Shown piece after piece: positions 28,038 through 53,565 of a stretch of DNA of 64,000 bases. Below the pieces are notes generated by a model, which was given only the letters and a program-made list of their open reading frames with translations, ran no database searches and was not told the origin of the DNA. The translations under genes were made by a program, and so were the position numbers. Location: the NCBI RefSeq assembly GCF_000003815.2, contig NC_049992.1, forward strand, positions 10,152,090 through 10,216,089. Reading direction: 5' to 3'. Every line of letters starts with the position of its first letter. The first letter of the stretch is position 1. Source of the stretch: Branchiostoma floridae (lineage: Eukaryota > Chordata > Leptocardii > Amphioxiformes > Branchiostomatidae).

Positions 28038-29521
28038 TCAGCGGTAAAAGAACATGATGACGGACTCAGTGACCAGCCGGTTCGCGCTCCAGCCATGTCC
28101 GGTACCGTAGCCATCCCAGTCCTTGGAGACGTAGTCACCGCACTGGCTTGATCCACCTTCCACCCAGTATCCACCTCCACCGATACACACGTGCTCGGAG
28201 TTGCCACCGACGAAGTTGACGCCTGGACAAACTGCATGGCAGGCACTCTCGTAGTTGAAGACCCGAAACTGCACGAACCCGGGGACGGCTTCATGTTGTT
28301 GCAGGATGTTCGGAGGCAACAGTGACTCGACAAGAGTATTATTGCCCTGATCGTACACAATGGGGATGGCCGGACCGTTGTCGTGGGTGTACGTGCCCAA
28401 GTTGTGGCCGATGAGGAAGTGATCTTTGAAGAGCGAGTAAAGGCTGCCTCCAAAGTCCTCGAGGAAACCGGTGGATGTGCGGTACCGTAGGTAGGCGGCG
28501 GTTTTGTACTCTTTTGGTGGTACGTTGTTCGGTACGTGCCACAGCATGACGTTGGAGGCGTGGATGCTGAAGTAGCCTGGGTTCTTGTAGTCGTCTGTAG
28601 TGGCCGACCCCATGGAGCCGAAGGTGTGCACGTTGGCCCAGTTGCCATCTCCTCCGGGGTAGTTGTGGTTGTTCCCTCGGGTGCTGGTCCAGCGATCCCC
28701 GGCTGTACACTTGCCGTACATGTCGTCCTCGTGCACGCTGGAGACCAGCGTCCAGCCGCCTCCGGCCGTGGTCATGTCGCAGTAGGTCTGGTAGATGGTT
28801 CCGTCCTTCCCGATAAGGAAGTAGGCACCGTCCTGGCTGGAGGGGTTGTTCTGTTTGATGTGAAGACAGGAGGAGGCGGGGTTGAGCTCGGTACCGAGAG
28901 CGTGGTCCAGGCTAGCCAGGGTTTGAGTGGCCACGACGGTGGTCTCCATCTGGGACAGTCGGTCTGCTAGCGTGTTCACGGTGTTGGCGAGGTCGTTGAT
29001 CACGAGCTTTGTAAGAATAGAGAAAAAATATAAGACAACATGAACGTTATCTCTATACAGAGACGTTATATACCTGAGAAAAATGATGATAATATGGCTA
29101 TATATAGGTTTCAAACGTCAGGGGTAAAGCGGCCTGTGATCACAAAGCTCAGGCATTTTAAACATGCAGGCAGGTTAACAGCATCGTCATCCCGAATAAC
29201 CCTCTTCGCTTTCCCCGGCTCTCCTGATATGATGTAGCGTTCGTTGCTAAAAAGTTTCCTCATGATGTCTCACTATTATTTCTACATTAGGAAAAGAGGC
29301 TATGTTCAACAATTAGGCGTCAACTATGTTGGCGTCTACTAAATTTAGTATTATGTAAATGCAGTCTGAGAACGTCCCAGTTAGTCGGCACATACCTGTT
29401 GATTTGCTAGCTCCTCCAGACAGGAACAGTTGGACGTTCCTGTGCGCCACGGGGTGTCGTTTGAGACTGAGCCGCAAGCGATAGCGACTAAGGACCAAAC
29501 GAGCAAGATGATTCTCGTCAT
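28038..29521 (-). CDS. Intelectin-like secreted lectin, complete (364 aa)
   Basis: Two coding exons: 29,396-29,521 (42 codons, donor CAG|GTATG) and 28,038-29,006 (acceptor CAAAG, 322 codons plus TGA). A signal peptide (MTRIILLVWSLVAIACG) is followed by a Cys-containing stretch (NCSCLEELANQQ), a short coiled coil (LANTVNTLADRLSQMETT) and the intelectin domain from about residue 85 to the end. Calcium and ligand positions (human ITLN1 numbering, counted from the shared C-terminus): N260, E262 and H263 in NSEHVC, E274 in WVEG, W288 in DWDGYG; Tyr-297 is Trp. Vertebrate intelectins lack the long coiled-coil leader, so oligomerisation probably differs. A TATA box lies 88 bp upstream of the ATG. 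Confidence 0.93.
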
Positions 29522-30520: not shown

Positions 30521-31792
30521 CTAGCGGTAAAAGAACATGATGACGGACTCGGTGACTAGCTGGTTCGCGCTCCAGGCGATGCCGGTACCATAGCCACTAT
30601 AGGCCTTCCACAAGTAGTCGCCGCATTGAGACAGACCTTCTGCCCAGTATCCACCTCCACCGATACACACTTGCTCTGCATTGGGGCCGACGTAGTTGAC
30701 ACCTGGGCAGACCGCAGTGCAAGAACGAGTGTTGGTGAACACCCGAAACTGCACGAACCCGGGGACGGCTTCGCCGTAAGTAACGACGTTCGGGGGCAAC
30801 AGTGACTCCATTACAGTATTGTTACCCAGGTCGTACACAATCGGGATGGCCGGACCGTTATCGTGGGTGTACGTGCCCAGTCCGTAAGCAATGGGGAAGT
30901 GATCTTTGAACAGGGAGTACAGATTACCTCCAAAGTCCCCAAGGAAACCGGTGGCGGTTCGGTACCGTAGGTAGGCGGCGGTTTTATACTCTTTTGGCGG
31001 CACGTTGTTCGGTACGTGCCACAGCATGACGTTGGAGGCGCTGATGCTGAAGTAGCCTGGGTTCTTGTAGTCGTCGGTAGTGGCTGACCCCATGGAGCCG
31101 AAGGTGTGCACGTTGGCCCAGTTGCCATCTCCTCCGGGGTAGTTGATGTTGTTCCCTCGGGTACTGGTCCAGCGATCCCCGGCCGTACACTTCCCATACA
31201 GGTCGTCCTCGTGCACGCTGGAGACCAGCGTCCAGCCGCCTCCGGCCGTGGTCATGTCGCAGTAGGTCTGGTAGATGGTCCCGTCCTTCCCGATAAGGAA
31301 GTAGGCACCGTCCTGGCTGGAGGGGTTGTTCTGTTTGATGAGAAGACAGGACAAGGCGGGGTTGAGCTCGGTACCGAGAGCGTGGTCCAGGCTAGCCAGG
31401 GTTTGAGTGGTCATGACGGTGGTCTCCATCTGCGACAGACGAGCCTCGAGGTCGGTGACTGCTGCCTGGGAAGAATAAAGGCAAATGATATTTCATTTCG
31501 CACAAAACATTTCGCACAAAACGTCTACAGTAGCCTGATTTAATCTCGCTTATAGCAGCCCGCCCAACATCCACCGGCCTCCTATTTACATCCCCCGGAC
31601 AGCAGAGTTTGTGTTACATAGACTAAGGTTCTAGGTACTGTTAGGAATTTGCTTTTCATCAGACACGCGACATGTACATACCTGCAGATTTTCGCAGGTG
31701 CATTTGACCTTTCCTGTATCCCGCAGGATGTCATTCGGTAAGCCATACGCGAGGGTCGTAGCGAACCAAACGAGTAGGATTGCCCTCATCAT
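30521..31792 (-). CDS. Intelectin-like secreted lectin, third locus (351 aa)
   Basis: Exon 1 is 31,682-31,792 (37 codons, signal peptide MMRAILLVWFATTLAYG, then CTCENLQ) with donor CAG|GTATG. Exon 2 is 30,521-31,465 (acceptor CCCAG, 314 codons plus TAG). A short coiled coil (AAVTDLEARLSQMETT) precedes the lectin domain. Its pocket differs from the neighbours: NAEQVC replaces NxEH (His-263 to Gln), KAYSGYG replaces DWxGYG (Trp-288 to Tyr), and position 297 is Trp; E274 is kept (WAEG). It lies outside the duplicated cassette, about 1 kb from the previous intelectin and in the same orientation. Two adjacent ATGs are possible starts. Confidence 0.93.
31531..31625. mobile_element. 95-bp TAG-ended element in an intelectin intron
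   Basis: It begins TAGCCTGATTTAATCTCGC and ends TTTGTGTTACATAGACTA. Both ends match, in inverted order, the two ends of the larger insertion at 2,937-3,758, so this is a deletion derivative of the same family. A clear target duplication is not visible here. Confidence 0.65.
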
Positions 31793-33923
31793 GCTGTCAA
31801 CTGTGCAGAACACAACTTCGAGACGTGAAGTAGGAAAACCTCTGTCCGTACTGTAGCTGAGCAGTGCCGGGCGCTCCTTAAGTAGTTGACATTCTATAAC
31901 AATGGTAGATTGAAGCCAAGAACCTAAACTGTTATTGGCCATCGTGTGATCGTAAGCCACAACAACCTTTTAACGTGACTTTTAGGGCACAACATGCTTT
32001 TAAGGTGTTTTGATATTATGACCTCCAGGGGCGGATCCCGGATCTTGCAGGGGGGGGGGGGGGCATATGCTGTTGTAGCTCAGTTCGTGGGCGAAGGGGG
32101 CAGAGCACGAGAGGGGGTCAACCCCGGAAACTTTTTAAAATATAGAGGCTCTCTGGTGCATTTTAGAGCCATTTCTGTGCAAAAAATGACCAACGAATCA
32201 ACACTGATTTTTAGGGCGGAACAAATAGTATAAACGGACGAACACATTCTTATAGTTAGCAATCTCACATTTAACAATCATATGGTCTTAAGATCCATTC
32301 TCGTTTTTTTATTGTACATTCTCGGAGTTAAGTTGTCTACATTTAGCGGAGGTATATCGTAAATTTGACACAGTCTGACATTGAATTTTTACTCCTGACA
32401 TTTACCGTCACAGTATGAATGGATGAATGTTTGATATTGTATCTTGCGTCGCTCAGCCCACATGGGCTAATAGGGCACCAAAACAACAAATATAATAACA
32501 TAGAGCAGCGTTCCCGCCAGGCATTCGTCAATGCATTTTTGGACGCATTTTTTGGGGAAAGACGCACTCAGCCGACTGCGTCCCCCAAAAAAAATTAAAG
32601 GGCGGCTGATATGTGACCGAAATGATAGGAAACAACGCAAGATAAGGGTCAAATATGACCCGTAGATAGTGTATTACGTATATGTGAAACCGACACAATC
32701 GACTCAACTTTCTACCTTCTGTAACACTCTGAAGTGCGACTGATTTGGTATACTAGCATTAAATTTAACAATCGGTAATTATATATGAACAAGCATGACA
32801 AGAGTACTAGTATTTATTTGCTAACATTCACTTTTATTCAAGATTATATTTTGCAATGCTCTCCGATCGGAATCACCCAGACCTTGTACGATTTAAAATG
32901 CTTTTTGACGGGAAATTGTTATTACATACGAACTTGACACGGTATTTCTGACCTTTTCCTTTCTCGGCAATTGTGTGTGTGTATCGGAGGCTTCGTGAAC
33001 TGTCACACTGGTAATTTTTATACTTTTAAACCATCGGCAAAGGGTGTGCGAACTGTAAACAGACGCCGCACACCATGTTCTCATCATCTTCTTCCCCGAT
33101 GTGACGAAGCCACGGCTGATTTTTGCGCCAATTTTCCCGAAAAGCATAGTTATAGACACGTCTGCGCTTGGGTTTGAGAGGCACGAGCCCCCCAGCGGCC
33201 CTGATGTTATTTCCTTGCGATCGATGGCGGTGTTGACTTCACCGCTAGCCCTTGTCCTTGTATCTCAACACTTGGACTAGTTGGAGTGGGAGTAACAGTT
33301 TCCACGTCGTCGTCATTCTTCTTGGTTGGTGCCTTGGCGAAATACTTGAATCTCCAGTTCGGAGATTTCCGTTTATTGTACACAACCAATCACGGCCATA
33401 TTTGGAGCCCTCTGAAAACATCGCCTTTTCCAGTGATAACTAGCGTAACTGCCTTTGTTGGCGCCGTTGTTGGCTGTAATTGGTGGTAAGTTTAATTGCA
33501 TGTTCTGCATAACCGGGCACGCCCCGTCCTAGCGCTACATCTAAGGGCCGCTGCCATGGTAACAGTAGCCTCCATAGCAGGCTCTCTATGGCCCTTTTTG
33601 GCACTTTTGCTGGCCATTTCTTTTTGTACTGGGTCGCTGATTCGGCTGGCCTTTTCTGACAGCCGGCTATTTGGGTAACGTTTCTGCTTGGATTGGTATT
33701 ACCGTGATATAATATTAGTGACAGTCAAAAAATTCTTCCGGTCGATTTTTTATTTTTTTTTGTCCAGCCGAAGGGGGGCGCGCGCCGGATGCGTCCCCTC
33801 TAAATCTGTATCAGCCCGACAAATGTGGCCTCTGACATAACAACCTGTCGAAGTATGAACTGTTCTTATCTTGTAATCTGCCTGTTATGTAACATTGAAT
33901 ATCCATTGCACTTCGCGTATAGG

Positions 33924-34042
33924 TATTCTCCAAGCAGAGGTTGAGTCACGGAGATGCAGTCGGGATTTTTACCGGCGCGCGTGAAAGAAGGTAAAAATCC
34001 CGACTACTATATCTCCGTGACTCAACCTCTGCTTGGAAAATA
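33924..34042. mobile_element. 119-bp palindromic MITE with perfect 9-bp target duplication
   Basis: The element is almost one long hairpin. It starts TATTCTCCAAGCAGAGGTTG, and the right arm is its inverted copy ending GGAAAATA. A second inner arm pair (GTCGGGATTTTTACC with GGTAAAAATCCCGAC) surrounds a short GC-rich loop. The flanks are the identical 9-mer GCGTATAGG (33,915-33,923 and 34,043-34,051). A 9-bp duplication suggests a Mutator-type transposase in trans. Confidence 0.88.
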
Positions 34043-34896
34043 GCGTATAGGTACAGTCGTAGTAATCACATCCTTCTTCCGCATATTATGTAAAAGTACA
34101 TTCTTAACTAGGTTTGATTACCAGGACATAGGTTCATTGACCGGCCACCGTTCCTGTCACTTTATGGTGAATGTGAATAGCATATGGAACTATCAAGTGC
34201 CAAAGTACAAACAGACCAAAACTAAACTACTTGAAAATCTTCCATTGATGGCATGACCTGGACTATCAAAGTAATTCTCGTATAAGGAATATTCCTTACA
34301 TCTTGGACATTGCGTTTTATTATGAATTTTGTGCCATTACTGCAAATAATTGCTAAAGCTGACGGGAGTTGGACCTGTCCATGAAACGGGATCTGTAAGA
34401 CAGATGGAAGCACAAAAGGTCGTCTTTTAAGTACAACTAGCGTCTGTACATCTTGATCCAATTTCAAGTACATGTATTTAGTTCCATCTCGACATGAAGC
34501 TTGTTTTACCGAAACGTCATCGCCGCTTGACTCTGCGGGGGTGGTGAGGTGCGGTGAGGGTCAATGACCTCTCTTCGGTCATTGACCCTTCCACAAAGGT
34601 GACGCCGGCAATGTTCGCAAAGTGCACAAAAGTAAGTTTTATTGTGAGAGTATTGAACTGATAAGTGCACTCTTTACCCTGTCCCTAGCTAGATCTCGGA
34701 TTAAACTACTGACTATGACTCCTAGCCCTGCCGGACCAGGCGCTAGCATCAACACTGTTCTGCAAAATTGATACGACTGATTCAGGTCAAAAGAGAAGCC
34801 AAAAGTTGCAAATCTTATCTATCTATTCATTCATGTTTTTTTTGTTCATGGGTCTCTATGATAACCCCGGCTCCAGTTACCAATGACAGCTCGGAA

Positions 34897-35020
34897 TATT
34901 CTGCAGGCAGAGGTTGGGTTGAGCGGGAAGTATAGATCATAATGTAGTAGCTGGGAAGAGACATAGCGGATACAAATCCCGGCACTACCATCCCCCGACC
35001 CAACCTCTGCTTGGAGAATA
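34897..35020. mobile_element. Diverged second copy of the TATTCTCC palindromic MITE (124 bp)
   Basis: Left end TATTCTGCAGGCAGAGGTTG, right end CAACCTCTGCTTGGAGAATA, the same termini as the element at 33,924-34,042 but with a diverged interior. The flanks AGCTCGGAA and AGCTCGGGC share seven of nine bases, an aged 9-bp duplication. Confidence 0.78.
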
Positions 35021-35325
35021 AGCTCGGGCAAGGATCTGACTTTGTGTGGGACCACGCCCCCTAGTGAATGCAGACATACTGCTACCATAGCAATGTCCTC
35101 ATTATACATTCACATCACGTCCTATAGTGTCCTGCGGGTAGACTTGCCTTGCTTTGGAGGACACCACCCTATTTGATTGACATTTGTACACAGGACGCTA
35201 GGGCTGGCGTAGCGTCGGGGGCGGTGGTCAGCAGACCTCGAGCAGACAGACGCGTCGCTTTGGACTCAGCTACGGTCGGGTCTGGAAGCGTCGTCTGTCG
35301 AACTCCTACAAATCCAGCTTAGGTT

Positions 35326-35573
35326 NNNNNNNNNNNNNNNNNNNNNNNNNNNNNNNNNNNNNNNNNNNNNNNNNNNNNNNNNNNNNNNNNNNNNNNNNNN
35401 NNNNNNNNNNNNNNNNNNNNNNNNNNNNNNNNNNNNNNNNNNNNNNNNNNNNNNNNNNNNNNNNNNNNNNNNNNNNNNNNNNNNNNNNNNNNNNNNNNNN
35501 NNNNNNNNNNNNNNNNNNNNNNNNNNNNNNNNNNNNNNNNNNNNNNNNNNNNNNNNNNNNNNNNNNNNNNNNN
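35326..35573. other. Assembly gap (248 N)
   Basis: A run of N of unknown true length. Features across it cannot be assessed; an upstream exon of the plus-strand gene starting near 37,295 could be hidden here. Confidence 0.99.
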
Positions 35574-37294
35574 CTTGCACATTTATGGGTTGTGGTCACG
35601 TCACTATATATGGGAATGCTGTGTCTTCGGTATGAACAGAAATGAAGGGAGGGCTATACTTGTTTGGTCCCCTTGGGCAATATTCTGTGGCACTTCACTT
35701 TGTTGATTAGCGTCTGTTGTCTTCGATCCAACTTAAGGTTTTGTAACGATAGAGGTTCAAAGCTATTGATAACCATGGTCGTTTAACAGTGAACGCCTAA
35801 CGATAAATAATGAATGTGAGGCAATGATCTGTCAGCTATATTGAAGTTGTCGTGAATAGATACCTTTGGACTGAACCCGTTCCATAAGATGTCAACCGCG
35901 TCCAAGACGCACCCACAGAGGTGACAGGACATGATTGACAGCATGAGCAAGCGTTGTTTACCTGTGGCCAACTCCACAGTAGTACTCTGTCCTTGATCCA
36001 AGTGTTTATCTCATGATACTGGTGTCATTTCGTGTGTAGATTTTGTTGACTATGGCAGGCCGTTGTTTTGGTTGTTCTTGCGAGGTAGTCCATCTTCGCT
36101 TACTGTAGTTAAAGAAAATTGCAGTCACGAAATGTTTCAAAGCGAACATATTTCAGGATATCATTATATAGCAGTTATTATATTAGGCACGGGAGGTGCT
36201 AAGGCAAGGTAATTATACTGTATATCACTTCTTTATAAGCATTTGACAACATCGCTGTTAACATATGTGAGAGTCTGCTTTGTTTTTTCTTCACAACGCC
36301 AGTGGGTAAATACCGATGCAGCCTGTAGTACTCGCCATAGTTTGTCTGTAATCCCATTGGCAGATGCGGACAGGAAAGCAAATCGGTCTGACCTACTTCT
36401 CCGCGTGTCTGCTTCCAGAGGACATTGCCCCCTGCTCGATTGTAAACACAGTCACGTCAAAACATGGCGGTGACCTAGAAACGCTGTAGTTCGCCATACA
36501 TATCTCCCGTCATGTTCAATTTACGGCGAGGGAAAGTTATGACGTTGTTTTGTGGATTTGTTTTCCACTTTTACCACATTGTGTATACGATGATGGTTGA
36601 TACGGTGGATGAATTTGTGGTTGATACGCTTTGTGGAGTTTAAAGGGGCGTTGTCCACTGGGGGTGTATTTTGCAAAGACTGGTGGGCTATATATAGTGG
36701 TGTTTTGTAAACTGATACTTTTGGATAGTACTGAACAGGTATCTTGTCTTGTAACCTGTGGGAATGCGCGGCAATGGGGAGAGATTATGCTGAATAACAT
36801 TTAGAACTTGACATATCATGTACTATTCATCCGATGATTGTGATGTCGATTATACTTGTGTTCTCAGGTTGAACTCTAAATTGAATAACTGCAGGCTTGT
36901 TTGTACTATTAATGTCAACTGGTAACTGGGGCATAACCAGGGAGCATATCTGGGGTATGGATACAGTTTTTGTCACGCTTGTCTGCTTTGTGCACGTGCG
37001 CGGTTTCTTTTGAAACGTTACTTCTTTTTATATTTACCGGATACCCTCTAACATATATCTATTAGTCAAGATATCGAAATGTTCGCAAATGCAAAACTTT
37101 GCATAGTAATTTGAAATGAATGGATCCATTGCTTCTGTAACAAACTTTTTTTTCAGTATAATTCACAAATGTATCTAGTGTCTTAGAGTGACGAAACGAA
37201 AAAGATGATCATCATGGTTAGTCAACTTATACTTCTGATATTCTTATCGGGACGCTCGTCGTTCAGTTATCATAAGGAAATATCATAGGAGCTC

Positions 37295-40200
37295 ATGAGC
37301 TTTTGTTTTCTAATTTCAGAGGGCTTTTTCTTCGTGAGGCCCTCGGCAAGACGGTCGATTCACCGCAAGGGGTTTTCGCAGTCAACCTCGTACTCATCCT
37401 CGGTGTCAACTTCAAAGTCATCATTTTCATCCTTCTCCTCCTCTTCATCTTCAGCTACGAAGTACCAACCGAGTTTGGTCAGGACTACATCAACAAGTAA
37501 GACACAAATCACAAAATCTGTTTAACCGTAAAACAATAATCAGTATAGCATGGCGATGATGCATTCAATTTCATTCTTTGCAGCAAGGAGGTAGTAGCAT
37601 TTAGGGTTTGCGTTTTCCTTTTAGGTTCGAGTACATACTCCAGTGATGAAAGTCCGGCCAGCTCTCCAGCACCGGAGACTGCAACTGCCGAGTTCCTTTC
37701 TCCTACAAGCTGGTTCCAAACATCGCTGAAGACATCCGAGTCCGACCATCAGATGGCAACACTGACCGCCACTGAAGAGTCAGGCTCCACTCGTCAGTCA
37801 TCGGCGATGGGAACAGAGGGGTCCTCCAACAGCAGGAGAGACTTTTCACCAGTGCGCGGCTGGACGGAAGGATGGATGAAGGTTCAGACAGCGAGTGGCC
37901 AGTCTACAGCTACTACTCGCACGGGAGAAGGTACTCGTGGTCCGGGATGGGTGGTGGAGGACTACTGTCTATTATGAGCAACTGGAGGGTGTGGGGGAAG
38001 AAGGATGAAGCTCCCAACGGTGGCATGACTGATGCAACTTCGATGCACACAGGTACTATTTCACAATTCCTAACATTTTCAATATATTCTGGAAAAGTTA
38101 AACTGTAATTTCCAACACGAAAATTGGACTTACCCCAATTTTCAACTTGATTGCGCTTTTGTTTCTTCAGAACAGAAGTCCATGAAACGTCCATGAGATG
38201 TGTTTACTTGAAGTCTTTATCCAAACATTGAGAAATGCGTGAAATCCTACTTTCAGATGGGTGATGTTTACGACAAATTGTTTGATACACGCAATGCGTA
38301 ATTGAAACGGGAGAAGGGAGAAGAAGTTGACATTCAAACCAACCCCTGCCATTTCTTTTTATACAAAAAGCGTCATCCAAGGCCTCAACAAAGTTCAGGG
38401 GTTCAGCTCGACATGAAGGTATTCACAGCTGGTCAGAAGGGTGGATGAAACGCCACCGTGTAGGAAACAAGCATATTTCCGCATCGACAGGTACATTTTG
38501 GACAACAAATCAATTGGTGATGCATGGTTGCGGTGATGAAGTCAGTTACACTGGCTGTCGTTCGTACTACGAAAGTTGTCACAACATTACGTCACCGTGA
38601 AACCAAACTGTGTTAATGGAGGGAATATAGGTTCTCTTGGAAAGAATGTAGCGGGTTCGCTTCTTTAAGGCTGTGGTCAAACGGATTTAGGAAAAAAATC
38701 TAAATAACGTATCCCCTCGGTCTCTCCGTTAATATGGTGTCTTGTAGTCTCAGAGGTGCCTCCTGCACTGCGCTTCGACAGGACGCCTTCTCAGCTGTAG
38801 ATGCCGCTGATAGGGATAAAGGCTTGATCCAAGACAATACCTCATTTCTTGCTACTCACTCGCCATTGTCTGTTTTAGTTGTTTTATCAATTGAATACTA
38901 ATATTTATTATCATAGGTGTACATAAAAGATAAACTATATTTTGTATATGGAGAAAGAAAAAAAAACAGGAAAAACAAATGAATGCAAGGAACTTTTGAA
39001 GGAAAAGGTGGGTTGATAGGTCTAAGTATTTCCATTTTCCCGAAATTCTAACTGTCAAATCACACAGTGGTCTCCTTTGCAGATAAAGACGCACAGTTGG
39101 AGACATCCAGTGAGACAGTGGCGAGGACAGAGCACGCAACTGTGTGCCAAACATCATCTTCGACTGTCATCACATCACAAAGTACAGTAGTCGGACAGGA
39201 AGCAGGATTGCGCGCCGACAGTGCCACGTCTGGAGACCAGTATGGCGACCTATCCTCGGGGAAAGGTTTTGGAGATTCAGCAGATCATCTCCAGGTATGT
39301 GCATGTTCGTCCAACACAAAAATACTGGATATCATTCTGCAAAAAAAACTACAGTAGATATGTAAGCCAGTATCCTTTGCCCGTGCCTGTGACCCACTCT
39401 CCGTTGTCTATGTATACATGTTGGTCTTATATGAAGCTACCTGTGTCCGAGAGGATTTGTAAATATTGCCCCTCAAATGCTGTGGAAGACGAGAGTCATT
39501 TTATCACTAATTGTTCTTTTTATGATGATATAAGAAACCAACTATTTATGAGTGTATCCAAAATACACGCTTACTTTCCAACTATTCCTGACAATGAAAA
39601 ATCAATCCCACTATTAAAATCAAAGAACCCACACATTATAAAAGAAGTGGGTAAATTCGTCTTCCACTGCCTAAAGAGGAGAAGTCTAACCCAACAAAAC
39701 CAGTATAATGTACACTAGCATAGCATATAGTCATAGAATGTAGTTCCTAGCACCTTTGTATTTTCCTTATTTTACATGTTGTTTGTACCTGCAATTAGCC
39801 CTCGGGCAAGAACTTGCAATAAACATATCATATATAAAGGAAGGCCATGGCCACCAAAGGGCACCATAACCAATCTACCTTTCTTTACATTACATTCAAG
39901 AAGTTTTTTACATCACGAACTTTGTGAGTTGGCAGGCGTGTACGACCTCCGTGTTTGACAAATTCAAAGTGTTAAAAGTGAAATATTTTGCCTTTTTAAA
40001 AAGTTTTACCATTACGTACATTCTTGGTACGGTAAGTTTAACAACGCTCGAAATTGAATCGTATGTTCTAAGCAGGACGAAGAAGACGAAGTCAAAGTAA
40101 ATGGCGCAACTGTCCAAACCTGGAATCAGAACATCGACGCAATGGAACAAGAGGTGTCGCAAGTTAGGGACGTCCAACAGTCGATAACACAGCATAGTGA

Positions 40201-43200
40201 GATGAATGGAAATGTGACGGTGGCAGCCTCAGGCAACGATACAACAACTACCGAGATGACGGTGGTGACGGAAGATTTCCTCAAGCAAACCGATACACAG
40301 GGAACGGGAGAAGACCTGGAGGAAGACCACAAAGAAGGAGTAAAGAGTCAGGTGGCAATGGTAGTTAGGCAAGAAGAAACGGAAGCTATGGAGCTCACAG
40401 AAACCTCTCAGACCTCCTTCAGCGAGAGCATGGTCCACAGTGAGCAAGACAAAGTCGTGATTGTTGAAGAGAAAGTAACTAGGGAAACTGGAGAAGATGT
40501 AGAGTCGAAGGAAGATCACAAAGAAGAGGAGACGATTAGGGACGTGGCTGGCCTAGAGCAAGAAGAGACAGCGCAAGATGAAGTGTTGATGGCAGTGATA
40601 ACTACTGAAGGCACCACCACCGTTACAACGGAGAATGATGCTTCGCAAGAGGTTACAGTATCTGTGGTCTCCTCGATGGGTGAGATTCGAGACAAACAGC
40701 AGAGTTCATACGAAGATCAACACAGTGGTGAGGTGGCAATGGCGGTGAGGCAGGAAGAAAAGGAATTTGTGGAGCTCACGAAGTCCCAGACCTCCATCAG
40801 TGAGAGCATGGCCTACAGCGAGCAAGACAAAGTCGTGATTGTTGAAGAAAAAGAAACTAGGTCAACTGGACAGTCGGAGGAAGATCACAGTGAAGAGGAG
40901 ATGATTCAGAAAGTGGTTGGCGTAGAGCAAGAAGAGACAATGCAGGATGGAGAGATGACGACAGTGATAACTACTGAAAGCTACACTACCGTCATAACGG
41001 AGAGTGAAGCTTCACAAGAGGTTACAGAATCCGTGGTCTCCTCTATGGGTGAGATGAGAGACAAAGAGGAAAGAGGAATGCAGAGTACACCCGGAGAACA
41101 TCACAGTGTTGAGATGAACGTAGAGGAAGATAACATCATACAAGAAGTATCCTTTGAAGAGACAGAAGAAGTATCAACGAGGCCGCGAGAAAGAGGAGGA
41201 GGAGCTACAGCGGGGGCCTCATGTCGTACATCCTTCCTGATGAGGAGGACGAGGAAGAAGAAATGGAGAGAGATACTAGTAGCGAAGAAGTGTCCATGGA
41301 GGTTACTGAGGAGTCATACATGGAGACCAGCAGTGATCAAAGCGAAACAGTCATCGCTGGGGTGCAAGAGTCAGAGAGTACAGAAGTGAAAATTACGACT
41401 CAGGGCAACGCCGAATCGTCCCAGCAGGAGTCATGCATGGAGACCGGCACTGATCATACCGAAACAGTCAACTCTGGGGTGCAAGAGTCGCAGAGTATGG
41501 AGGTGGACATATCGATTCGGGGCGACGCCGAATCATCCCAGACAGTGACCACTGAGATTATGACAATAACTAGCACACAGCAAGAAGAGGGGCAAGGTGT
41601 GTCTACAACGTCCTCTGATATGACGATGGTGGTTGAGACTAATGAAGTCGTGGGTGTAGAGAAAACATCTCACGCAGCTACAAGTACCGATACAACAGTG
41701 GAAGAGTCTGCCCAGTCAACAATGACTTCAGAGGATGTTATTGTTGAACCGCAAGAGCCCCGAAGTACCGAAACCATTAAGACCAAAAGAGGCAGACCAA
41801 CAAATGAAGATAGGCGGGCGAGTGCCACCACTAGACGTAAGTCATACTTTCTCCGCAATAAGATGAGTCCTAGAGTTGCTAAATTGCGCGCGGGCAAGGC
41901 ACTTGAACCTGCAAAAGCTGGACAAGGACGAAAGAAAGCTGAGGAAACTGAAACTCGAAAGAGGAAGGGAGTACATGTTGAATCAAATAGCACAGCGGTA
42001 ACACTGAATAAGAAACAGAAAACCGCGATCAAGAAGACAACAAGTGCGACAGTAGAACAAGGCATTTCATTGGTTCTCAGTAGGGTGGATGAACAGCAAC
42101 ATTCTGACGAAGGAGATGTCTTGGATGAAGATGAAGATACTAAGGTAGCAGAAACAATGGAGGAGACTATGACAGTATCTGAAACAGGCCCACGAGATGA
42201 GCAAGACGAAGAAGAGAAAGACGAAAGTGCGATAGCAGAGGGAGAACCGGCTCTCGGTGAACAGGCGGAGGCTCAAGAGGAAGGGACGGAAGAGTCCATT
42301 ACAGATGAAAGCAACATTACTGAAGTGACGGACAACGCCGTGAAGACGATCCATGCTGACGAGATTGAGGAATCACATGACCAGGAAGACTTCATTGAGG
42401 AGCTGCCCGAACGGTCTGCTGACCAAGAAAAAGTCGAAGAAGAGCATCAATATTCGACTTTGACAAACGTTCAGACAGTCACAGAGACCTCGGCTATTAC
42501 AAATGAGACAGAGGAGCACATAAAAGAAATAACGCAGGGTGATGAGGGTGAGGTAGTCAGAGATAAAAGCATCACTATCGTGTCTGCACGAGTAGTTGCT
42601 GAAACACCCAGCAAAGGCGATTACTGGTTTAGGTCTCGTCGTAAGAGGCGTTTGTTCGACACAGATGATGGCTACACAGTCGGTCACAAGTCAACAAGCC
42701 GAAAGTACCCCGTCCAGGATGAACATAAGAAACCCTCGGGGTCTGTAGAAGAATCAAATCAAGTCAGTGTCATTGAAAAGCGCAAGAAGGAACGGAAGGA
42801 ACGCCAACCATCGGTCAATGAGGACAAACAAGAGGAAGTTCTTGCACTAGGTGAGGCATCAACAATCGAAACAGCTATTGCCACGAAAAGCAAAGCGCAG
42901 GATGAACAGACGACTAAGTCTGTCAGTAAATCAAACCAGAAAAAGGTCATCACGGTTAAGACTGCCACGAAAAGGACCGAGAGGGCAAGCAAAGATGTCG
43001 ATGGGCGAAAGAGATCTTACTGGTTGAGGGGACGGAAAGCTGTCCGCGGCCCCGACACGGAACCAAAGGTTAGGACTTCGCCTGCAGCCAAGGCCAACAG
43101 CACGAAAACTGTCACCGAGACACGGCAAAGCAACGTTGAAGGTTCACTGAAGAAGAAAAGCTTCTTTATACTGGCATCAACTAAGCCTCCTGCCTCTGCG

Positions 43201-46200
43201 GCGTCTATCAAAGGGACAGTCTTGAATAATACTAGTAAAGAACCGGGTGATCAGATGGAAGCTTCTGTAGAAGAGGTTTCTATCGTTGATGCCGAAGCTA
43301 AAGATCCAAAAGCTAATGAAGAGGTGACCGGTGAGGGCACAGAAGACGAGGAAAAGATTGAGGAAAATGATAAGGAAATACATTCCCAAGGCAAGCAAAC
43401 AACAATGGCAAAGCTAGAGGTAGTGCAAGAAGAACATGAAGAACTTCTAGGAGAGGAGGCGGAAGAGGAGGCGGAAGAGGAGGCGGAAGAGGAGGCGGAA
43501 GAGGAGGCGAAAGGGGAGGCGGAAGAGGAGGCGGAAGAGGAGGCGGAAGAGGAGGCGAAAGGGGAGGCGGAAGAGGAGGCAGAAGAGGAGGCGGAAGATA
43601 AAGCAGAAATAGCAGAACAAGATGGGGTAAGGGAGGAAGAAGAAGAAGCAGAAGGGGAAAGTGAGAAGGTAATAGAAGACGAGGAGGAGAATGAAGAAGA
43701 AGAAGAGGAGGGGGAACCAGAAGAGGAGGAAGCTGAACAAACGCGAGCCAAAACAAGTAGCCAAGGACGCCGAGGAAATTATTGGCTGCGGTCGAAAACG
43801 GTCTACTATGGCAGTGGGCCCAGTGCGCGAAGTGGCTTCCTTGCTGCCATTGCTACAACTACAATGTCTAGTGGTGCAAAACACATTGGCAACAAAACCA
43901 CTATGAAATCGACTGAGGAAACGACAACTACTGAAAGTGACGTGGATGACGAATCAGAAAAGTTAGATAAAGAAGGAATGGAACAAGAAAAACACGAAAG
44001 ACAGGAAGACAAACTAGAAGATGAAGTTGAAGTTGAAAAGAAGGAGGAAGAATCAGTAACAGTCGATGAAGAAGTCAAGGAACAAGAACAGTACGAAATA
44101 CATGAAGAAGACGCAGTAGACGAGGAAAAGAAGGAGGAAGAACGGGAAGAAATACAACTTGGAGAAGAGCAAACATCAACAGTACAAGACGAGGCAGCAG
44201 AACAAGATCAAGACGGAACGGTCGATGATGGAGAAGTAATGGAACAAGAACAAAATGAAGAAGAGGAAGAAACTCTAGAAGACGTAGATAAGGAAAATGA
44301 GGAAAGTGAGGAACCAGAAAAGGCTGTTGAAGGAGAAGTAATGGAACAAGAATTTGATGAACATCAGGAAGAAGAAATTGAAGATGAGGAAAAGACGGAG
44401 GATGAGCAGGAGGAAATACAAGAAGAGCAAACAACAGAAGTAGAGGAAGAAAAAGCAGAACAAGCGGAACAAGAACAAGATGAATTAAGACAGGAACAGG
44501 AACAAGAAGAAACAGAAGTGGTAGACGAGGAGACAATAGAAGAGGAGGAGGAGGATGAAGAACAGGAGGAAGCAGAACAAACGCGAGTTAAAACAAGAAG
44601 TCACGGACGCCGAGGAAATTATTGGCTGCGGTCGAAAACGGTCTACTATGGCAGTGGGCCCAGCGCGCGAAGTGGCTTCCTTTCTGTCATTGCTACAACT
44701 ACCATGTCTAGTGGTGCAAAGGGTATTGACAACAGCACCACTATGAAATCGGCTGAGGAAACGATAACTACTGAAAGTGACGTGGATGACGAATCAGAAA
44801 AGTTAGAAGTAATAGAAAAATACGAAAGACAGGAAGACAACTCAGAAGATGTTGAAAAGAAGGAGGAAGAATCAGTAACAGTCGATGAAGATGTCAAGGA
44901 ACAAGAACAATACGAAATACATGAAGAAGACACAGTAGACGAGGAAAAGAAGGAGGAAGAACGGGAAGAAATACAACTTGGAGAAGAGCAAACACCAGCA
45001 GTACAAGACGAAGAAGCAGAACAAGATCAAGACGGAAAGGTCGATGGCGGAGAAGTAATGGAACAAGAACAAAATGAAGAAGAGGAAAACAATCTAGAAG
45101 ACGTAGAAGACAAAGATGAGGAAAATGAGGAAAGCGAGGAAGCAGGAAAGGTTGTTGAAGGAGAAGTAATGGAACAAGAATTTGATGAACATCAGGAAGA
45201 AGAAATGGCAGATGGGGAAAAGACGGAGGATGAGCAGGAGGAAATACAAGAAGAGCAAACAGAACTAGAGGAAGAAGAGGCAGAAATAGTGGAACAAGAA
45301 CAAGATCAATTAAGACAGGAACAAGAAAAAACAGAAGGGGTAGACGAGAAGGCAATAGAAGAGGAGGATGAAGAAGAGGAGGAAGCAGAACAAACGCGAG
45401 TTAAAACAAGAAGTCACGGACGCCGAGGAAATTATTGGCTGCGGTCGAAAACGGTCTACTATGGCAGTGGGCCCAGCGCGCGAAGTGGCTTCCTTGCTGC
45501 CATTGCTACAACTACCATGTCTAGTGGTGGAAAGGGTATTGACAACAGCACCACTATGGCATCGACCGAGGAAACAACAACAACTTTTGTTTCTAAGAAT
45601 AGCTTTGTTGACGAATCAGAGAAGTTAGATGAAGAAGGAATGGAACAAGGTCAATACGAAAATAAGGAAGAAGATACACAGGAGGAAAGGGAGAAGGAAA
45701 TACAAATCGAAGTGCAAGTGCCAGCTGAAGACGAAACAGCAGAGGTAGTGGGACAGGGTCAAGAGGAAAGACAGGAAGATGAAACACCGATGGAGGAGGA
45801 GGAGGGACCAGTAGAGCAAGTAGCAGATGCAGAAGAAGCAGACGAAGACGAAAGAGAGGAAAGAGAATTAGATAGGGAAGAGGCAGAACGTGTAGAAGAG
45901 GAGGGGGAAGATGAGGAAGAAAAGGAGATAGAAGAAAGACAGGATGAGCACAAGGATATACAATTTGAAGTAGAGCAAGGACCAGATGAAGAAAAAGAAG
46001 AGGTAGTGGAAATAGAAGTGGAAGACCAAGATGAAAGAGAGGAAGGAGAATCAGATAAGGAAGAGACAGAAGCTGTAGAGGAGGAGGGGGAAGGTGAGGA
46101 ACAAAAGTACAAAGAACGAAAACAAGTTACAAGTGCAGTCGGACGCCGAGGGAACTATAGCTTGCGATCAAGGACAGTCTACTACGGTAGCGGACCAAGT

Positions 46201-49200
46201 GCACGCAGTAGTTTTCTTGCTGCCATCGCGACTACTTCTATGTCTAGTGGTCAAAAAGGAAAATTCAAACCAAGGCACACGACGCAGAATCAAAAGAGGG
46301 AGCACGGGGCCACTCAAGGGTCACAAGCAAAATAACAGCAATGACATCACAAGGCGAAACGCCCGAAGCGACGGTTATTGAGGAGGCTGATTTGGAAGAA
46401 GAGTCGGAAAAGGTAGATCATAATGGTGAAGTTCAAAACATCACCGTATTATCAGAGAAAGGTGAACTGTCTGGCTCTGAACTTCAAGCAACGACTACAT
46501 ATTTCATCACGAAAGTAACTGAAGAAGGGACTAGAGGAGATGAGCTGGCGGTGGATGTGGATACTATGTCACAAAGGACAACAGTTTCAACAGTGACCAC
46601 AACTAGTCGAGCTTCTACAGATAACACGCATATGGAAGATGCCGTGTCCACAGCAGGAGAGCAGACCATCACTGAAGTATATGAAGAGCAGGCTGACTCC
46701 GAAGCTGCGGTTATCGCTGATGACAATGATGAAAGTGATGGGGATGGCAGCGGCATTGAAGAGATTTCAGATGCCGCTGCTGAGGATTCGTCCCATAAGT
46801 CCAAGGTTGAGGAGAATCTGATTACCATGGCTATCCAGGAAGATCGTATTGAGAGAGAATCTGCAGCTAAGAAAGGAAAGGCGACAGTAGAAAGCTACAC
46901 AGAGCAAGAAGCTGGTAAAGTAACTGAATTTGAGGAAGGCACGGGAGAGGACGCAGAAACAGTGACCAGGGGGAGAAAGGGTGGCACAAGGGGAAACTAT
47001 TATCTGCGTTCTAAGACGGTGTACTACGGGAGTGGGCCAAGTGCAAGAGGCGGTTTCAGAGCTGCCATGGCTGCCGCGGCCATGCGAGGGGCTGTCGCTG
47101 ACCGGACCAAAGCGTCGAGCGCAAAGGCAGTACTTTCAAGGAAGGCCAAGAAAACAGATGTTCATCAAGCATCGAGTGAGAATCCAGAGGAATTAAATGT
47201 TGTAGAACAAGAAGCAGTCGTAATGGCTACTAGCAGTTACGAAGAAGAAAGTTCTGAAGAAATTCAAGAGTCGTCGACGGATGAAACCGTGACTGTTGAG
47301 AGCCTTGAACAACACACAAGTGAAAGTTCAGGGGACACGACTGAAGACCAAGATGCGTCAAATGCAGAATCTGAAGACAAGGCGAATGAACAGCAAGACT
47401 CTGAGGACAGAGAAGCACACACCTCAGATACTCAGGCAGATACGGAAGTATGCGCGACAGTTGAGAGCCCTGATGACCTTGCTGTCGGACAAGAGACAGA
47501 CCAAACTTCAGAAGAGAGTATGGACGACCCGGAAAGCCCCCAAACGCAGGAGGTTGCTGACGTTGAACAGACAAATAAAATGGAAATGCCTCCGGTCCCC
47601 AAAAACGTATCTAAGAAACGCAAGCATGATGAATCATCGATTGGAGAACGTTCCACTAAAGGAGAGGGAAGCCAGAAAGGTTCAAGAGGTAACCACAACT
47701 TGCGGTCAAGGACAGTCTACTACGGCAGTGGACCAAGTGCGCGTAGCGGCTTTCTTGCTACTATCGCGGCCGCCACAATGAGCAACAGACAAGGACAATC
47801 TGTGACATCACGATCAGCAAAGAAGTCATCAAGATTTGTTATGTCATGTGGCAATACAAGTGAAAAAGAGCAGACGGAAGAAGCAAATGCCGTTACCATC
47901 CAAGATGACGAGAACGGCCCGTCAGAAGAAATCTCAAAATCAACTGAAGTTCAAGGAGAAGGAGCTGAAACAGTTTCCACCACGATTGTAGAGGGCATCA
48001 CAGATGAGGATATTGAGGGCGTCTTGGAGGAGCTGTCAGAAAGTGCTGCCAGCGGGCAGATGTCTCTTGAGGACGCTATGGCGGAGGCTGCGTCTCCCAA
48101 AGATATTCTGACAGAAAACCAGGAAGAGAGCGGGAACGAAATTCAGGCTGAACATAGCACGGCAGATGCTATAGAGACTTTGGACGACGCCTCTTCTATC
48201 GACGACGACCCCTCTACAACAGTGCAAAGTTTTCAGACCAGTGACAAACAGCAAGAGGTACAAAACATCGTGTCATCGTCTACATCAAAAGTGGGTAGGA
48301 AGAAGAGAAAGGTCGACTACACCGAGACAGTTGGACAGAGCGAAGAAAAAGCAGATTCAATGGATGTAGCATCGTTGAGGCACAGACAGAAAGTATGACA
48401 GATGGAGAAGGATCTGAAGAGATGGTGGTAAGGACAAACACACAGAAGGAAAGTGCTGTGGAGTCCAGCGAATCGCCTGGCCGTTCATATTGGCTAAGAA
48501 AACGGACGATCGCGTATTATTACTCAACGGGACTTGAATCTCCCCTGGCAGTGGTCACAAAGTCATCAACCGTGTACGAGACAGACAGCAAGAAACGCAA
48601 CAAGAGCTCAGAGGCAAGTACCAAGGCGACTAAACGAGCAATAACCACCAGCAAGGAGGTGGCATCCAAGAAATCTAGAAAGGAAACCACCGTAGTTCAG
48701 ACAGAAGGAGAGATCAGTTCACCGTCTGAAACGCTGGAAGAATCCTCCGCATCTGAAGCTCAGAGTACAACGGAACAGGAGGTATCGTCGACAGGGTCGA
48801 TGGAAGTGGAGACAACTTCTGTTAAGGTGACTTCATCTGACGACAGCCAGAGTGAGAAAACCGAGACCATTGTGATGGAGGATGGAGAAACATCCAGCAA
48901 AACGATTCTATTCGCCGACCCAGGAACAGCCTCTACGTCGACTGAAACAACAACGATCATAACTAACGTCGAGGTAGGCTCAAAGGGACTCGGTGCCGAC
49001 ACAGAGACGCACGAAGAAGTGATGACTACCACATCAAAAACTAGGATGAGAGGCAGTCGAAAAGTGGGACCAAAAACGGTGACAAAGATATCCACACTGG
49101 AAAGTGTGGAGGAGCTTCCAGAGGACCAACATGTAAGTACATGTAACCTGTTCTACTATAGGTAACGTTACTAGGTCAACGTTAATGAAGAAAATTGAAA

Positions 49201-49866
49201 CATTTGCTTGAAAGAGAATTAGCGCTAAGTTTGAATCTCCATCATCATTCCATACACTTTGCTTAGTATGAGTGATGACTAACTTCGCCTCCTTATTAAT
49301 TCCCAAGGACGAGAAGGAAGGCGAAGCCATTTCAGCAGTCGAGACTGAAGAGGTCATGACAGCAAGAAGCGAAGAACAAGGGTGTGTTCACTTATTTGTT
49401 ACTGAATATTCAGATTAACATTAGCACACATAAAACCTTTATGCTCAGGGGTATCGGTCGCACATTCTATTGGTCACAAACTTTTTTCACATTGTGTAGG
49501 CATTCTTATTGCTATAGTCAAGGCAGATGTCATAGCATATATATTCAGTGTTGTTAAAGTATGGTCCGTTGTTTTTGGTATTCATTGCATTACGTCATCC
49601 CTCCCTCTAGAACAACATCTGAATCTCTCCTGTCAACTGGCAAGAAATCGACCAACAAGTCCAAAACAGTGAAAACTACTACAGTGAAGACTTCAAAGAT
49701 GAAGACGACTTCATCGAATGTTTCAATGTCACACACAACCGTCGTGACCAAGTCTTCCTCTTCAACGAGGAACATCAACAGCGAGGGATCTTTGGGCCAG
49801 GTATACTCCATGTCCCTTAGACGGATGGGAGACGGAAAGAGACGTGTGTACACCTGGAACACTTAA
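37295..49866 (+). CDS. Giant acidic protein with repeated basic/aromatic YWLRSK modules (~3,400 aa, unknown family)
   Basis: I recognise no family. Proposed exons: 37,295-37,496 (ATG; Ser-rich), 37,625-37,930, 38,371-38,490, 39,083-39,294, 40,076-49,132, 49,308-49,381 and 49,611-49,866 (TAA). All junctions are GT-AG and in phase, the first three introns in phase 1. Exons 2 and 3 share a GW[S/T]EGWMK motif. The 9-kb exon is very rich in Glu, Thr, Ser and Asp and contains about ten modules with core Y-W-L-R-S-K; those from 43,764 to 47,790 continue VYYGSGPSAR then a hydrophobic AAIATTTMSSG-like segment. Basic clusters (RKRRRSY near 41,190; SRRKRRLF near 42,625) look like nuclear signals. The 3' exons give a Lys/Thr/Ser tail ending VYSMSLRR...RVYTWNT. 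The frame steps back one base at three places (41,160-41,220, near 46,253 and 48,340-48,395), probably missing bases in the assembly. The start is uncertain: AG at 37,318-37,319 could instead be an acceptor for an upstream exon. Function unknown; a nuclear scaffold is only a guess. Confidence 0.7.
39360..39840 (+). mobile_element. 3' fragment of a CR1-like non-LTR retrotransposon
   Basis: An open frame ending at TAG 39,716-39,718 carries LPVSERICKYC, then VEDESHFITNCSFYDDIR, the Cys/His motif typical of the end of many non-LTR reverse transcriptases. An untranslated tail ends in GCAATAAAC-like sequence near 39,820. It lies in the intron between the exons ending at 39,294 and starting at 40,076 of the large gene. 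The left boundary is not clear. Confidence 0.7.
43447..43610 (+). repeat. 12-bp coding microsatellite (EEEA tract)
   Basis: Direct repeats of GAGGCGGAAGAG encode a Glu/Ala tract of more than 50 residues (EEEA units with occasional KGEA) inside the large acidic protein. Slippage here would change protein length without breaking the frame. Confidence 0.95.
43764..46257 (+). repeat. Tandem ~0.8-kb coding repeat (four module copies)
   Basis: Module starts at 43,764, 44,604, 45,418 and 46,141 give spacings of 840, 814 and 723 bp. The 117-bp module core is nearly identical at the DNA level between the first three copies, and the acidic linkers (DESEKLD, then runs of E/Q) also align. Recent unequal crossing-over or gene conversion is likely. 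More diverged modules follow at about 46,987, 47,686 and 48,478, and precede at about 41,841, 42,617 and 43,003. Confidence 0.92.
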
Positions 49867-52800
49867 GACGAACACTGCTACTCCTAAGGACCAGTTTGTT
49901 CAGGTTTATTCAAATTGACCCAATAATTGTTGTGGGACCAATAGTTGTTGATTTCTTTGTGTTACAAACGGCTACCTCCTTTAATGTGTGTTACAAGAGT
50001 GGTTAGTTCTAGTCACTACAGTGAAATTTATTAGACGTTATACAGTCCAACATGGCTACGGTGTGGTATAACATGTATTGGTGTTTGTTTGCTTAATAGC
50101 CTACTAGATGATTAAGATAATGTGTATGCTAGTGGAGGTAGTGGCATATATATTCATAGATGTAGGTCCAAGGAATTGGATATATTTTGGGAACTTGTCA
50201 TCAAACTAGAGGTTGAATCTTTACTGACTTTTCACGTTTTGTACTTTGAAATTTGTAGCGGGAGTAAATGATAGGGGTGTGCGATAGCTAGATGCAAAGT
50301 ACATGGATATTTCTGAGTTAACATCAACTGTCATATTTCCAACGGATGCCATGATACTGCCACTTGCGAAAAATACATGGATTTAAAGAGACGTACGAAT
50401 GCATCAGTAATCCTGAGGTATATACACTTCAGATATCTAGGTGTCCAAAACAATCTTGACAATGCTTTTTTTATGTAGTGACATTATGACAACTGGTGAA
50501 ATTATGAGAGTTGATGTTACAATGTTATGATAGTGTGAGATCTGTAATGTTAGAATTAGCTTCAGTGTGTGGACAAGAGTTGCACTATGCTCCTTACTAA
50601 TGAATCAAGTACCAATTTCAGTAAAAGAAAGACAAAAATACATGGAACAGTCTATTACATACTTTGCTTTAATCTGAAGTGGTACAAAAGTCTGTGTGAC
50701 ATCTATGAAAAAAGACAACAATCATGAAGTGTTACAAATGTAACAGCAGCAGTTTACAAAAATATCTCCTTCAACGTGGAGATCCTCTCAATATGTGGGA
50801 TGCAAAAGGCTCTTATATTACAAGTTGATGGTTGGATTGTTGGATGAAGAAAAGGGAAATGTAACGTTTATGAAAATCTATAATCAAAAGTTGATGGTTG
50901 GATTGATCCTTGGATATATGAATAAAAGGGAAATTAATGTAACACGTATAATATGGACTCCTTTGGTTACCTTTCCATTGTATCAATGCCTACAATGTAG
51001 CTTGCACCACTTTTATACATCTATAAGCAATACAATGTAGATACATACAAGGATAATTGTAACATATCCCTCAAGCAAACCTTGCTGGTTTTGACTCTGG
51101 CTTCCCATAGATACAACAGTGTTATATATAAAAGGTTTCAAAGAAATATAAGGGGAGGGGGACATACATAATACGGTTGGCTCCCTACTTGACATGTATC
51201 GGCATACCACACTGACACAGAAAATAGTGAAGCTGCAACTTGTTTGGTCCAGTCTTAATCAGATGTAAAATGTAGGCGCTTGTGACACTCAGAAATATAC
51301 TCGTGTATCATAAAGCTGAATCCAGCAGTATGAATAACAACGTTGCAAGATAAAGGTCTTGTATCATGTATTTTCTTTCTTTCCTGAGCCCACTGTGATG
51401 GTTCAGGCCCCTTAAATTAATCACTTAACACGTTACTGTCTTAAGCATATAGAAGGAAAAATACATAAATGATCACCTCATCTCTAAGTTAAAATCAAGC
51501 CAGAACTCAATTTTTCCCAGTGGACATACAAGAGTCACCAGCACCAGTTTTCTAAGGAACATCCCCACCCAAATACAAAATGATTAATGTAACCTTTACT
51601 GCAACTGATTTCTACTTCATAAAATATTTCTAAACATACCAAAAAACAGTCTTTGCTGTTCCCTATAACTATTGTACAAATTCATTTCATTTTTCATGAC
51701 AAAATAAGACAAGTAAAAAAGTGACAAGGTTTTGTTTAGAAAAAAATTGTAAATGACAATCATTGAAAGTCATACAAAAGTGAAGTTTAGGCAGAGTGTA
51801 TCTTACCATGCTATGAAGAAAGAGACTTGTGCTAAGTTTGTTCACACTTCAATATTTTATGGTGGGATGATTTTGACAAAAAGAAAACTTCCAAATCTAT
51901 CCTGCATGCACATCCTGCATGTAGGTTACATTTTCACTCATTAATTGTGCCCTGTACAGTACATTTACACTTTGCCATTCTTAATGAATTTAAGAACCTT
52001 CTTTGATATACAAAATAAATCATTAATCAGTTACACTTATATACCACTGCACTGCCCATATACGGTAGTTTTTGGGTAGTTGTTGTTCAAGTACATTTTA
52101 CTTTTTGACACTATCCCAATACCTTAAAATGCAAATACACGCAATTTGCTGTCTATATAATACTGCCTCTGATGGTGCATAGCATAAAACTCGTCAAAAT
52201 AAAACATGAATGTAACCCATTCTATGCTGAATTCAGTCAAAATGTCACTGATTCAAGAAAACAAGTGCTACATTCTGTAAACATAAAAGCAGAAAAGTGC
52301 CGATTTGTACTGTCCCTGTCTGGCAAGCTGCAAGTATGCATCACTGATGATTTCTACTTTATCCAGACATACCTGGCCTTGATTTACAGCAATACCACTA
52401 TATCGCAAACAAACACTGTAGAGACATGTGATGTTACTTTTCAAAGCACCACAAAGTACTACAAATCTGTGTAGAATGATGTTCCCATGAATGGATATGG
52501 AATGAGATTTCTCTTTACTGGAATGAGCCTCCATCTTCGTCAATCATTTCCTACAATTAATCTCTATTCATAGGAATTAGTTAAAAACAAGTTCTGATAT
52601 CCTAACAAATATAATAAGAGTCATTGCACTAATGGTCAATACAAATATGGTTCGTCTAGTATCACTTAGTTTACATCAACAACCTTACTATTATACAGAT
52701 CAATTCTAGTAATCCTGTCAACTAGATTGTCAATCCTGTCAAATACATTGTCAATCCTGTCAACTAGACTGTCAATCCTGTCAACTAGATTGTCAATCCT

Positions 52801-53565
52801 GTCAACTAGATTGTCAATCCTGTCAACTAGATTGCTACATAGTTCATCTATTGCATGACAAATCCTCTAGAACAGAACTAAACACTTATCTTATTAATAG
52901 GAACAGATCATGATCAGGCAGGTTGAGAATGGGTGTGTTTGGAAAAAATTGGTCATCAGAAAATTTTGATATGTACAATTACATTTTGGCAAAAAAGTGC
53001 AGCATGTAGGGTTGACCTAGGGTTATGGAATGCATCCCACAACATCCTCTCCTACATAATCCTGGTTTCTACTGTCAAGAAAGCTGGACATTTTTCTGTA
53101 AAGCACCCTTAGGCCAGAATTGTGCAGGTCATAGCATTATGTTTTTATGATTCCCTGTATTAAAGTTTCTGTTATGTACATACACCTGTAAATATAAATC
53201 CTAAAATGGGTAACATTATATACATGTTGAAATACATGAAGGGCATTACTCAGTGACTCTTGTGAATTGCCATGCATCTATTGTACAACAAAATCAAAAT
53301 CTCTCTTGTGCATGTGGCCAAGCTGCTTTCATTAATATCTTGGAGAAGATAGATACTTATAACATCCTTCACCCTTTTTGTATTTGTCCCGCTAAGGATT
53401 CACAATGACAAGTGCAAAACTTTCAACCAAATCACAATCTTTCATTCTTTAACATACAATACAATCCCTGACATACGTAAAACAGTCTTCACATACATTT
53501 CTCCCATACCATATGCATCAGGCACCCTCATACCGAGTTCCCTGTTCATGCAACTGTCTGTACAA
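49867..53565. other. 3' flanks of two converging genes; no exon seen
   Basis: This is the space between the end of the acidic-protein gene (+) and the end of NAD kinase (-). It is AT-rich with no convincing ORF. AATAAA on the plus strand occurs near 50,921 and 52,014. A 21-bp minisatellite lies at 52,711-52,836. Confidence 0.5.
52711..52836. repeat. 21-bp minisatellite, six copies
   Basis: Units of AATCCTGTCAACTAGATTGT plus C repeat six times with a few substitutions, at 21-bp steps from 52,711. It is non-coding, in the region between the converging genes. Confidence 0.92.

Follow-up and report, generated by a model that had tools for sequence, protein, structure and literature searches.

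A giant acidic lancelet protein with ten lamin-A-like motifs: a candidate multivalent nucleosome binder

Gene structure

We analysed a 64-kb stretch of the Branchiostoma floridae genome (the window; C14:10152090-10216089), and the genome searched comprised 513 Mb in 431 contigs. Positions below are those of the window unless a contig is named. On the plus strand we found a gene whose exons, between 37320 and 49866, are compatible in splice sites and phase and whose bulk is a single 9-kb exon:

37320..37496, plus strand: exon A, basic and serine-rich (GFFFVRPSARRSIHRKGF...), with AG/GT borders and a phase that agrees with exon B; a single place in the genome
37625..37930, plus strand: exon B, carrying GWTEGWMK; a single place in the genome
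38407..38490, plus strand: exon C, carrying SWSEGWMK, which echoes exon B
39083..39294, plus strand: exon D, compatible in splice sites and phase
40076..49132, plus strand: giant exon E, about 3,012 amino acids when read with three frame changes
43452..43598, plus strand: 12-base repeat of 12.2 copies, coding for an E/A-rich run
49308..49381, plus strand: exon F, compatible in phase
49611..49866, plus strand: last exon G, ending ...GQVYSMSLRRMGDGKRRVYTWNT and a stop

The exon model starts at 37320 and the 5' end of the gene was not found upstream of exon A; the window has a gap of Ns at 35326-35573. A frame-0 peptide at 37776-38105 was discarded as an exon, since exon B joins directly to exon C. 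The W[T/S]EGWMK motif common to these adjacent exons forms a second small repeat within the gene. At 39191-39718 lies a fragment that by eye resembles the tail of a reverse transcriptase, and the open frame that contains it shares sequence with the last part of exon D and continues into the intron before exon E. The giant exon codes for an acidic protein (E 20.9%, T 10.2%, S 9.9%, D 6.2%, K 6.3% and R 4.3% of about 3,012 residues; E and D together 27%), the N-terminal part of which gave no match in a phage collection. Genome searches with module, C-terminal-module and N-terminal-exon queries returned one locus and, besides, a match on C5 at chance level (E 9.5); the module queries failed to recover modules 1 to 3 of the gene itself, so distant relatives could escape such a search. 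By these searches the locus is a single-copy lancelet gene.

Other features of the window were mostly assigned by eye. Two RIOK1-like copies lie at 13007-14391 and 24930-26645, one open over 571 aa and the other split over frames, and similar BTB-like pieces near both suggest a local duplication. Intelectin/fibrinogen-like lectin genes were recognised at 16320-17114 (plus strand), 28038-29117 and 30521-31492 (both minus strand). A 21-base tandem repeat of 5.9 copies with 94% matches is found at 52711-52834.

To stay open, the giant exon needs its frame to change three times, each time by -1, within 41158-41389, 46248-46335 and 48299-48398. They could be read as marks of a decaying gene, whose modules were once under selection and whose current copy has been disrupted by frameshifts. 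Two other giant frames in the same assembly (1854 and 1520 aa) served as a rough control and are open; frame breaks are thus not found throughout it. We scored the possible joins by codon likelihood. For the third change a direct -1 seam, as from one lost base, scores best (70.4 vs 56.9 for the best GT-AG intron), while the first two also fit short introns or gaps. At the second, 106.4 is reached by a seam plus a gap of 8 bases, which nearly ties with long gaps (106.1) and with GT-AG introns that delete module 7 (104.4). At the first, the top score (125.1) goes to joins that skip 41-59 bases, and a 74-base GT-AG intron scores 119.1. On these scores the changes may be due to lost bases, to small introns or to real lesions, and the clear look of a single lost base belongs to the third change only. 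Programmed -1 frameshifting was considered as well; no slippery heptamer was seen by eye at the second change. Against decay stand the four frame segments, which hold no stop in the 3,012 codons counted, and the nature of the assembly, which its description gives as Sanger-based with two haplotypes merged (PMC7269912). The same text describes a 19-chromosome assembly for Branchiostoma floridae (PMC7269912). We give decay of the gene only a small chance, and it is possible that the assembled copy is not translated as one protein.

Ten modules on acidic linkers

An initial annotation had described a short module recurring about ten times along this protein. All ten are present on the plus strand, their core aromatic codons lying 4-16 bases past the positions first given; each line below begins with the first base of that codon.

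41845..41862, plus strand: module 1, core YFLRNK
42622..42639, plus strand: module 2, core YWFRSR
43018..43035, plus strand: module 3, core YWLRGR
43780..43878, plus strand: module 4, YWLRSKTVYYGSGPSARSGFLAAIATTTMSSGA
44620..44718, plus strand: module 5
45433..45531, plus strand: module 6
46156..46254, plus strand: module 7, YSLRSRTVYYGSGPSARSSF..., with module 9 the top-scoring against lamin A over the 8-residue flank
46998..47096, plus strand: module 8, YYLRSKTVYYGSGPSARGGF...
47694..47792, plus strand: module 9, HNLRSRTVYYGSGPSARSGF..., the other top-scoring module
48488..48505, plus strand: module 10, core YWLRKR

The modules are spaced by 132-281 residues and their number far exceeds chance. 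The 3,012-residue protein of the giant exon contains [YFWH]x[LFIM]R 10 times, where 2,000 shuffles gave a mean of 0.44 and at most 4; for Y.LR the count is 8, with a shuffle mean of 0.04 and a shuffle maximum of 2. The core arginine is found in 10/10 modules, tyrosine and leucine in 9/10 each and serine in 7/10, and the next residue is K or R in 10/10. YxLRS is present in five of the ten (modules 4 to 8), with HNLRS in module 9 and YWFRS in module 2, and the exact string YNLRS in none. Modules 4 to 9 follow the consensus RGN-(Y/H)-x-LRS-(K/R)-TVYYGSGPSAR, the TVYYGSGPSAR block being conserved beyond the core. The module as first described was thus only partly tenfold: the core and its basic flanks are in all copies, and VYYGSGPSAR with the A/T-rich tail is limited to modules 4 to 9, being absent from modules 1, 2, 3 and 10. 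Likewise the near-identity in DNA that had been claimed for the middle modules holds for modules 4 to 6 and fails for modules 7 to 9.

We compared 20 core codons between the module 4-6 group, module 7, module 8 and module 9 and obtained a pS of 0.53-0.97, near saturation, with a pN of 0.04-0.11. The resulting pN/pS is about 0.05-0.14 in the core between diverged copies of modules 4 to 9 vs 0.5-0.7 in the linkers; the core is therefore held while the linkers drift, as the initial annotation had supposed in taking the modules for the constrained parts. Its picture of a flexible polyanion that bears a repeated binding site would fit well with such cores and looser linkers. The cores of modules 5 and 6 are identical at all sites, the linker pair L4-L5 is young (pS 0.108, pN 0.078) and the pair L5-L6 is old (pS 0.625, pN 0.314), which points to a recent duplication of a linker-plus-module unit. 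The identical cores and the young pair also make it plausible that module copy number varies between individuals.

The linkers turned out to be less extreme than the almost pure E/D/S/T/Q stretches once described: in 12 measured segments these five residues make up 46-71%, and E and D 18-51%. Charge nevertheless alternates strongly along the chain, with module segments of up to +11 and linkers down to -23 per 40 residues. This alternation would suit a self-associating polyampholyte, whose basic aromatic modules bind its own E/D-rich linkers (or RNA, or DNA) and form a gel or condensate, any likeness to lamin A then being convergence. Charge alone, however, leaves unexplained why Y, L, R and TVYYGSGPSAR are strictly conserved at near-saturated synonymous sites. 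We regard this alternative as unlikely, though with an appreciable chance of being right.

Comparison with known families

The absence of a recognised family reported for this protein was borne out by domain searches. Among ten pieces of the gene, Pfam gave only New_glue (E 0.0025, 17.9 bits, cut-off 31) and TraD, both below cut-off and in one piece, the remaining nine being without a match. For the ten modules the one Pfam match was DUF6098, in a single member (E 0.0043), which is not convincing. Against PDB sequences one module matched one plant protein at E 0.77 and the module profile matched nothing. Pfam found no domain in the three plus-strand frames of 31501-40091, and in those of the 10 kb upstream of the window only weak matches to Fibrinogen_C (14.9 and 15.1 bits, cut-off 22) and COLFI (12.9 bits, cut-off 26.2). 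Where the claim did not stand is the core of the module, which matches the acidic-patch motif of lamin A, and the nucleosome is therefore suggested as the missing partner.

In human lamin A, residues 579-583 (YNLRS) contact the H2A-H2B acidic patch, according to a 2025 cryo-EM study at 2.3 A (PMC12527912), where R582 is the arginine anchor to H2A E61, D90 and E92 and the tail fragment binds nucleosomes with a Kd of 48 uM and H2A-H2B with 12 uM. Compared with the human tail motif as printed in PMC10154249, the module core YxLRS[K/R]TVxxG shows a likeness that is a new point. The likeness consists of the core Y-x-L-R-S-K/R followed by T-V-x-x-G in modules 4 to 9, with the arginine invariant, and in lamin A the motif sits in a disordered tail. 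Over the 8 residues after YxLR, each of modules 4 to 9 matched human lamin A at p 0.0001 or less (20,000 shuffles each); since these modules are related copies, their matches count as effectively one test, and the test is partly post hoc because the lamin A and LAP1 lead came from a text search for similar strings. The flanks of the other modules gave p 0.68 (module 1), 0.31 (module 2), 0.016 (module 3) and 0.049 (module 10), and over 20 residues the match of modules 4 to 9 fades to p 0.006-0.05. When whole modules were aligned with gaps to a lamin tail the outcome was mixed, the shuffles as good out of 2,000 being 587, 1280, 16, 52, 228, 201, 33, 11, 1 and 248 for modules 1 to 10 in order. 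By eye the C-terminus of lamin A seemed to resemble the last exon, but this tempting likeness failed, 1346 of 2,000 shuffles being as good. A genome search with a 30-residue lamin A motif gave no match, the query missing even the giant-protein gene, which makes the result uninformative.

A motif of four or five residues such as YxLRS can arise by convergence, and human LAP1 (TOR1AIP1) offers an example in its nucleoplasmic region, ESAYYLRSRQRRQ (PMC4252041), where the core YYLRSR compares with YYLRSK of module 8. LAP1, an integral protein of the inner nuclear membrane, has a flank unlike that of modules 4 to 9 (p 0.12-0.36 over the same 8 residues), and its luminal torsin-activating domain gave no Pfam match in the ten gene pieces (the exons found). 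That LAP1 carries YYLRSR without a lamin-like flank, and that module 2 is nearer to the LAP1 flank (p 0.0086) than to that of lamin A, is in favour of the self-associating polyampholyte, for which the flank match of modules 4 to 9 to lamin A is again left unexplained by charge. Judged by sequence, shared descent and convergence as sources of the likeness of the modules to lamin A are not separable by these tests. In the literature the string YWLRSK was absent from text searches, papers found with the strings YNLRS, YxLRS, YSLRS, YYLRS and GSGPSAR named no lancelet protein in title or abstract opening, and the titles among the matches listed for lamin and lancelet did not include this gene.

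The match of core and 8-residue flank to lamin A, together with the missing 5' end, could mean that the gene is part of a lamin or lamina protein, with the rod and lamin-tail domain in unrecognised exons. We searched for these by tblastn with human lamin A and found in the window a best E of 2.0 for the intermediate-filament rod (PF00038) and 0.77 for the lamin-tail Ig domain (LTD; PF00932); the 30 kb upstream contained no match at E 0.01. A genome-wide LTD family search gave 21 matches, 20 on C12, one on C1 and none on C14, and also missed the real lamin, whose LTD is split over exons; an LTD protein query found four places, on C2 and C4. The C-terminus lacks a CaaX box, the last exon ending VYTWNT. 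The genome's own lamin lies on C2, where pieces of the rod reach 60% identity with human lamin A, pieces of the LTD are present, and a short frame that closes with GDPASPRQRCSIM was assigned by eye as the CSIM end. Because neither a rod nor a lamin-tail domain turned up in the window or, at E 0.01, in the 30 kb before it, the C-terminus is without CaaX and the lamin of this genome is on another contig, the giant-protein gene is, on present sequence, not a lamin, and we consider a hidden lamin very unlikely. Between LTD and CSIM of the C2 lamin, where there are N gaps, a search for [YFHW]x[LFIM]R and then [SPNGKTQ][KRQ] returned a single match, on the minus strand (30158119, VYCIRSK) and judged non-coding, and the motif is thus likely absent from that lamin.

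Two further LTD loci came to light in these searches. The twenty matches on C12 (22527004-22549084, minus strand; loci L008-L015 and L040-L042) are in tandem, with open frames of 1854, 1520, 668 and 183 aa, and appear to form an unusual LTD-array gene or genes. At C4:18772351-18773126 (plus strand) there is a second lamin-tail-like gene, with no rod match at E 0.01 within 40 kb.

Putative nuclear signals and histone target

Three short basic features bear on the location of the protein:

41785..41799, plus strand: KRGRP in KTKRGRPTNEDRR, just before module 1, with an RGRP core; no Pfam match there
47613..47627, plus strand: KKRKH
48294..48314, plus strand: GRKKRKV

The RGRP core may be AT-hook-like, and GRKKRKV and KKRKH resemble nuclear localization signals. 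Together they agree with the nuclear location proposed from basic clusters in the initial annotation, and the giant protein is likely nuclear. They speak against a cytoskeletal or secreted structural protein (a glue, a sheath or a neurofilament-like side arm), for which the E-rich giant exon and the weak New_glue match could be cited; that match is below cut-off and Pfam found no filament domain in the gene pieces or the plus-strand frames of 31501-40091. A structural role of this kind is in our view highly improbable. In the three H2A loci that were read, of 50 matches, the acidic patch is intact (E56, Y57, A60, E61, E64, D90, E91 and E92), and a docking target therefore exists.

Discussion

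The reading that we favour, with slightly better than even chances, is that of a giant, acidic, presumably disordered nuclear protein with ten lamin-A-like nucleosome-binding motifs that serves as a multivalent nucleosome-binding scaffold. Docking, nuclear location and multivalent chromatin binding are what we infer. The H2A-H2B acidic patch would receive each Y-x-L-R-S-K/R core as it receives YNLRS of human lamin A, the tyrosine and leucine packing on H2A/H2B and the arginine, present in 10/10 modules, acting by analogy as the anchor. With such modules on negatively charged linkers, a single molecule could bind several nucleosomes in a weak, reversible way, gain avidity from module number and thereby cross-link or space chromatin. 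The acidic linkers may keep the chain extended and compete with DNA for histone tails; they could also occupy the basic modules themselves, which would count against the nucleosome reading.

Lamin A carries its motif as a single copy in a filament protein with rod and Ig domains, whereas the lancelet protein has ten on an acidic chain in which no lamin domain was found. Other arginine-anchor binders of the acidic patch (KDM5A, BCL7A, viral proteins and others) likewise rely on a short basic motif that supplies an anchor arginine and that frequently lies in a disordered region, and among those listed no ten-copy array is mentioned in titles and abstract openings. As for the origin of the motif, we regard it as a doubtful but conceivable idea that chordates before lamin A had a stand-alone giant multivalent nucleosome tether, that the vertebrate lamin A copy perhaps came from a relative of it, and that acidic-patch tethering predates attachment to the lamina. 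In the lancelet the search of the lamin turned up no YxLRS motif, and the ten related cores are in a separate protein.

If the scaffold reading is true, the lancelet would offer a natural multivalent binder of nucleosomes in a chordate protein that is not a lamin but has ten related motifs. Effects of valency and of acidic linkers on chromatin could then be studied with it, and it would bear on the origin of the disease-linked motif of lamin A (R582 and its neighbours).
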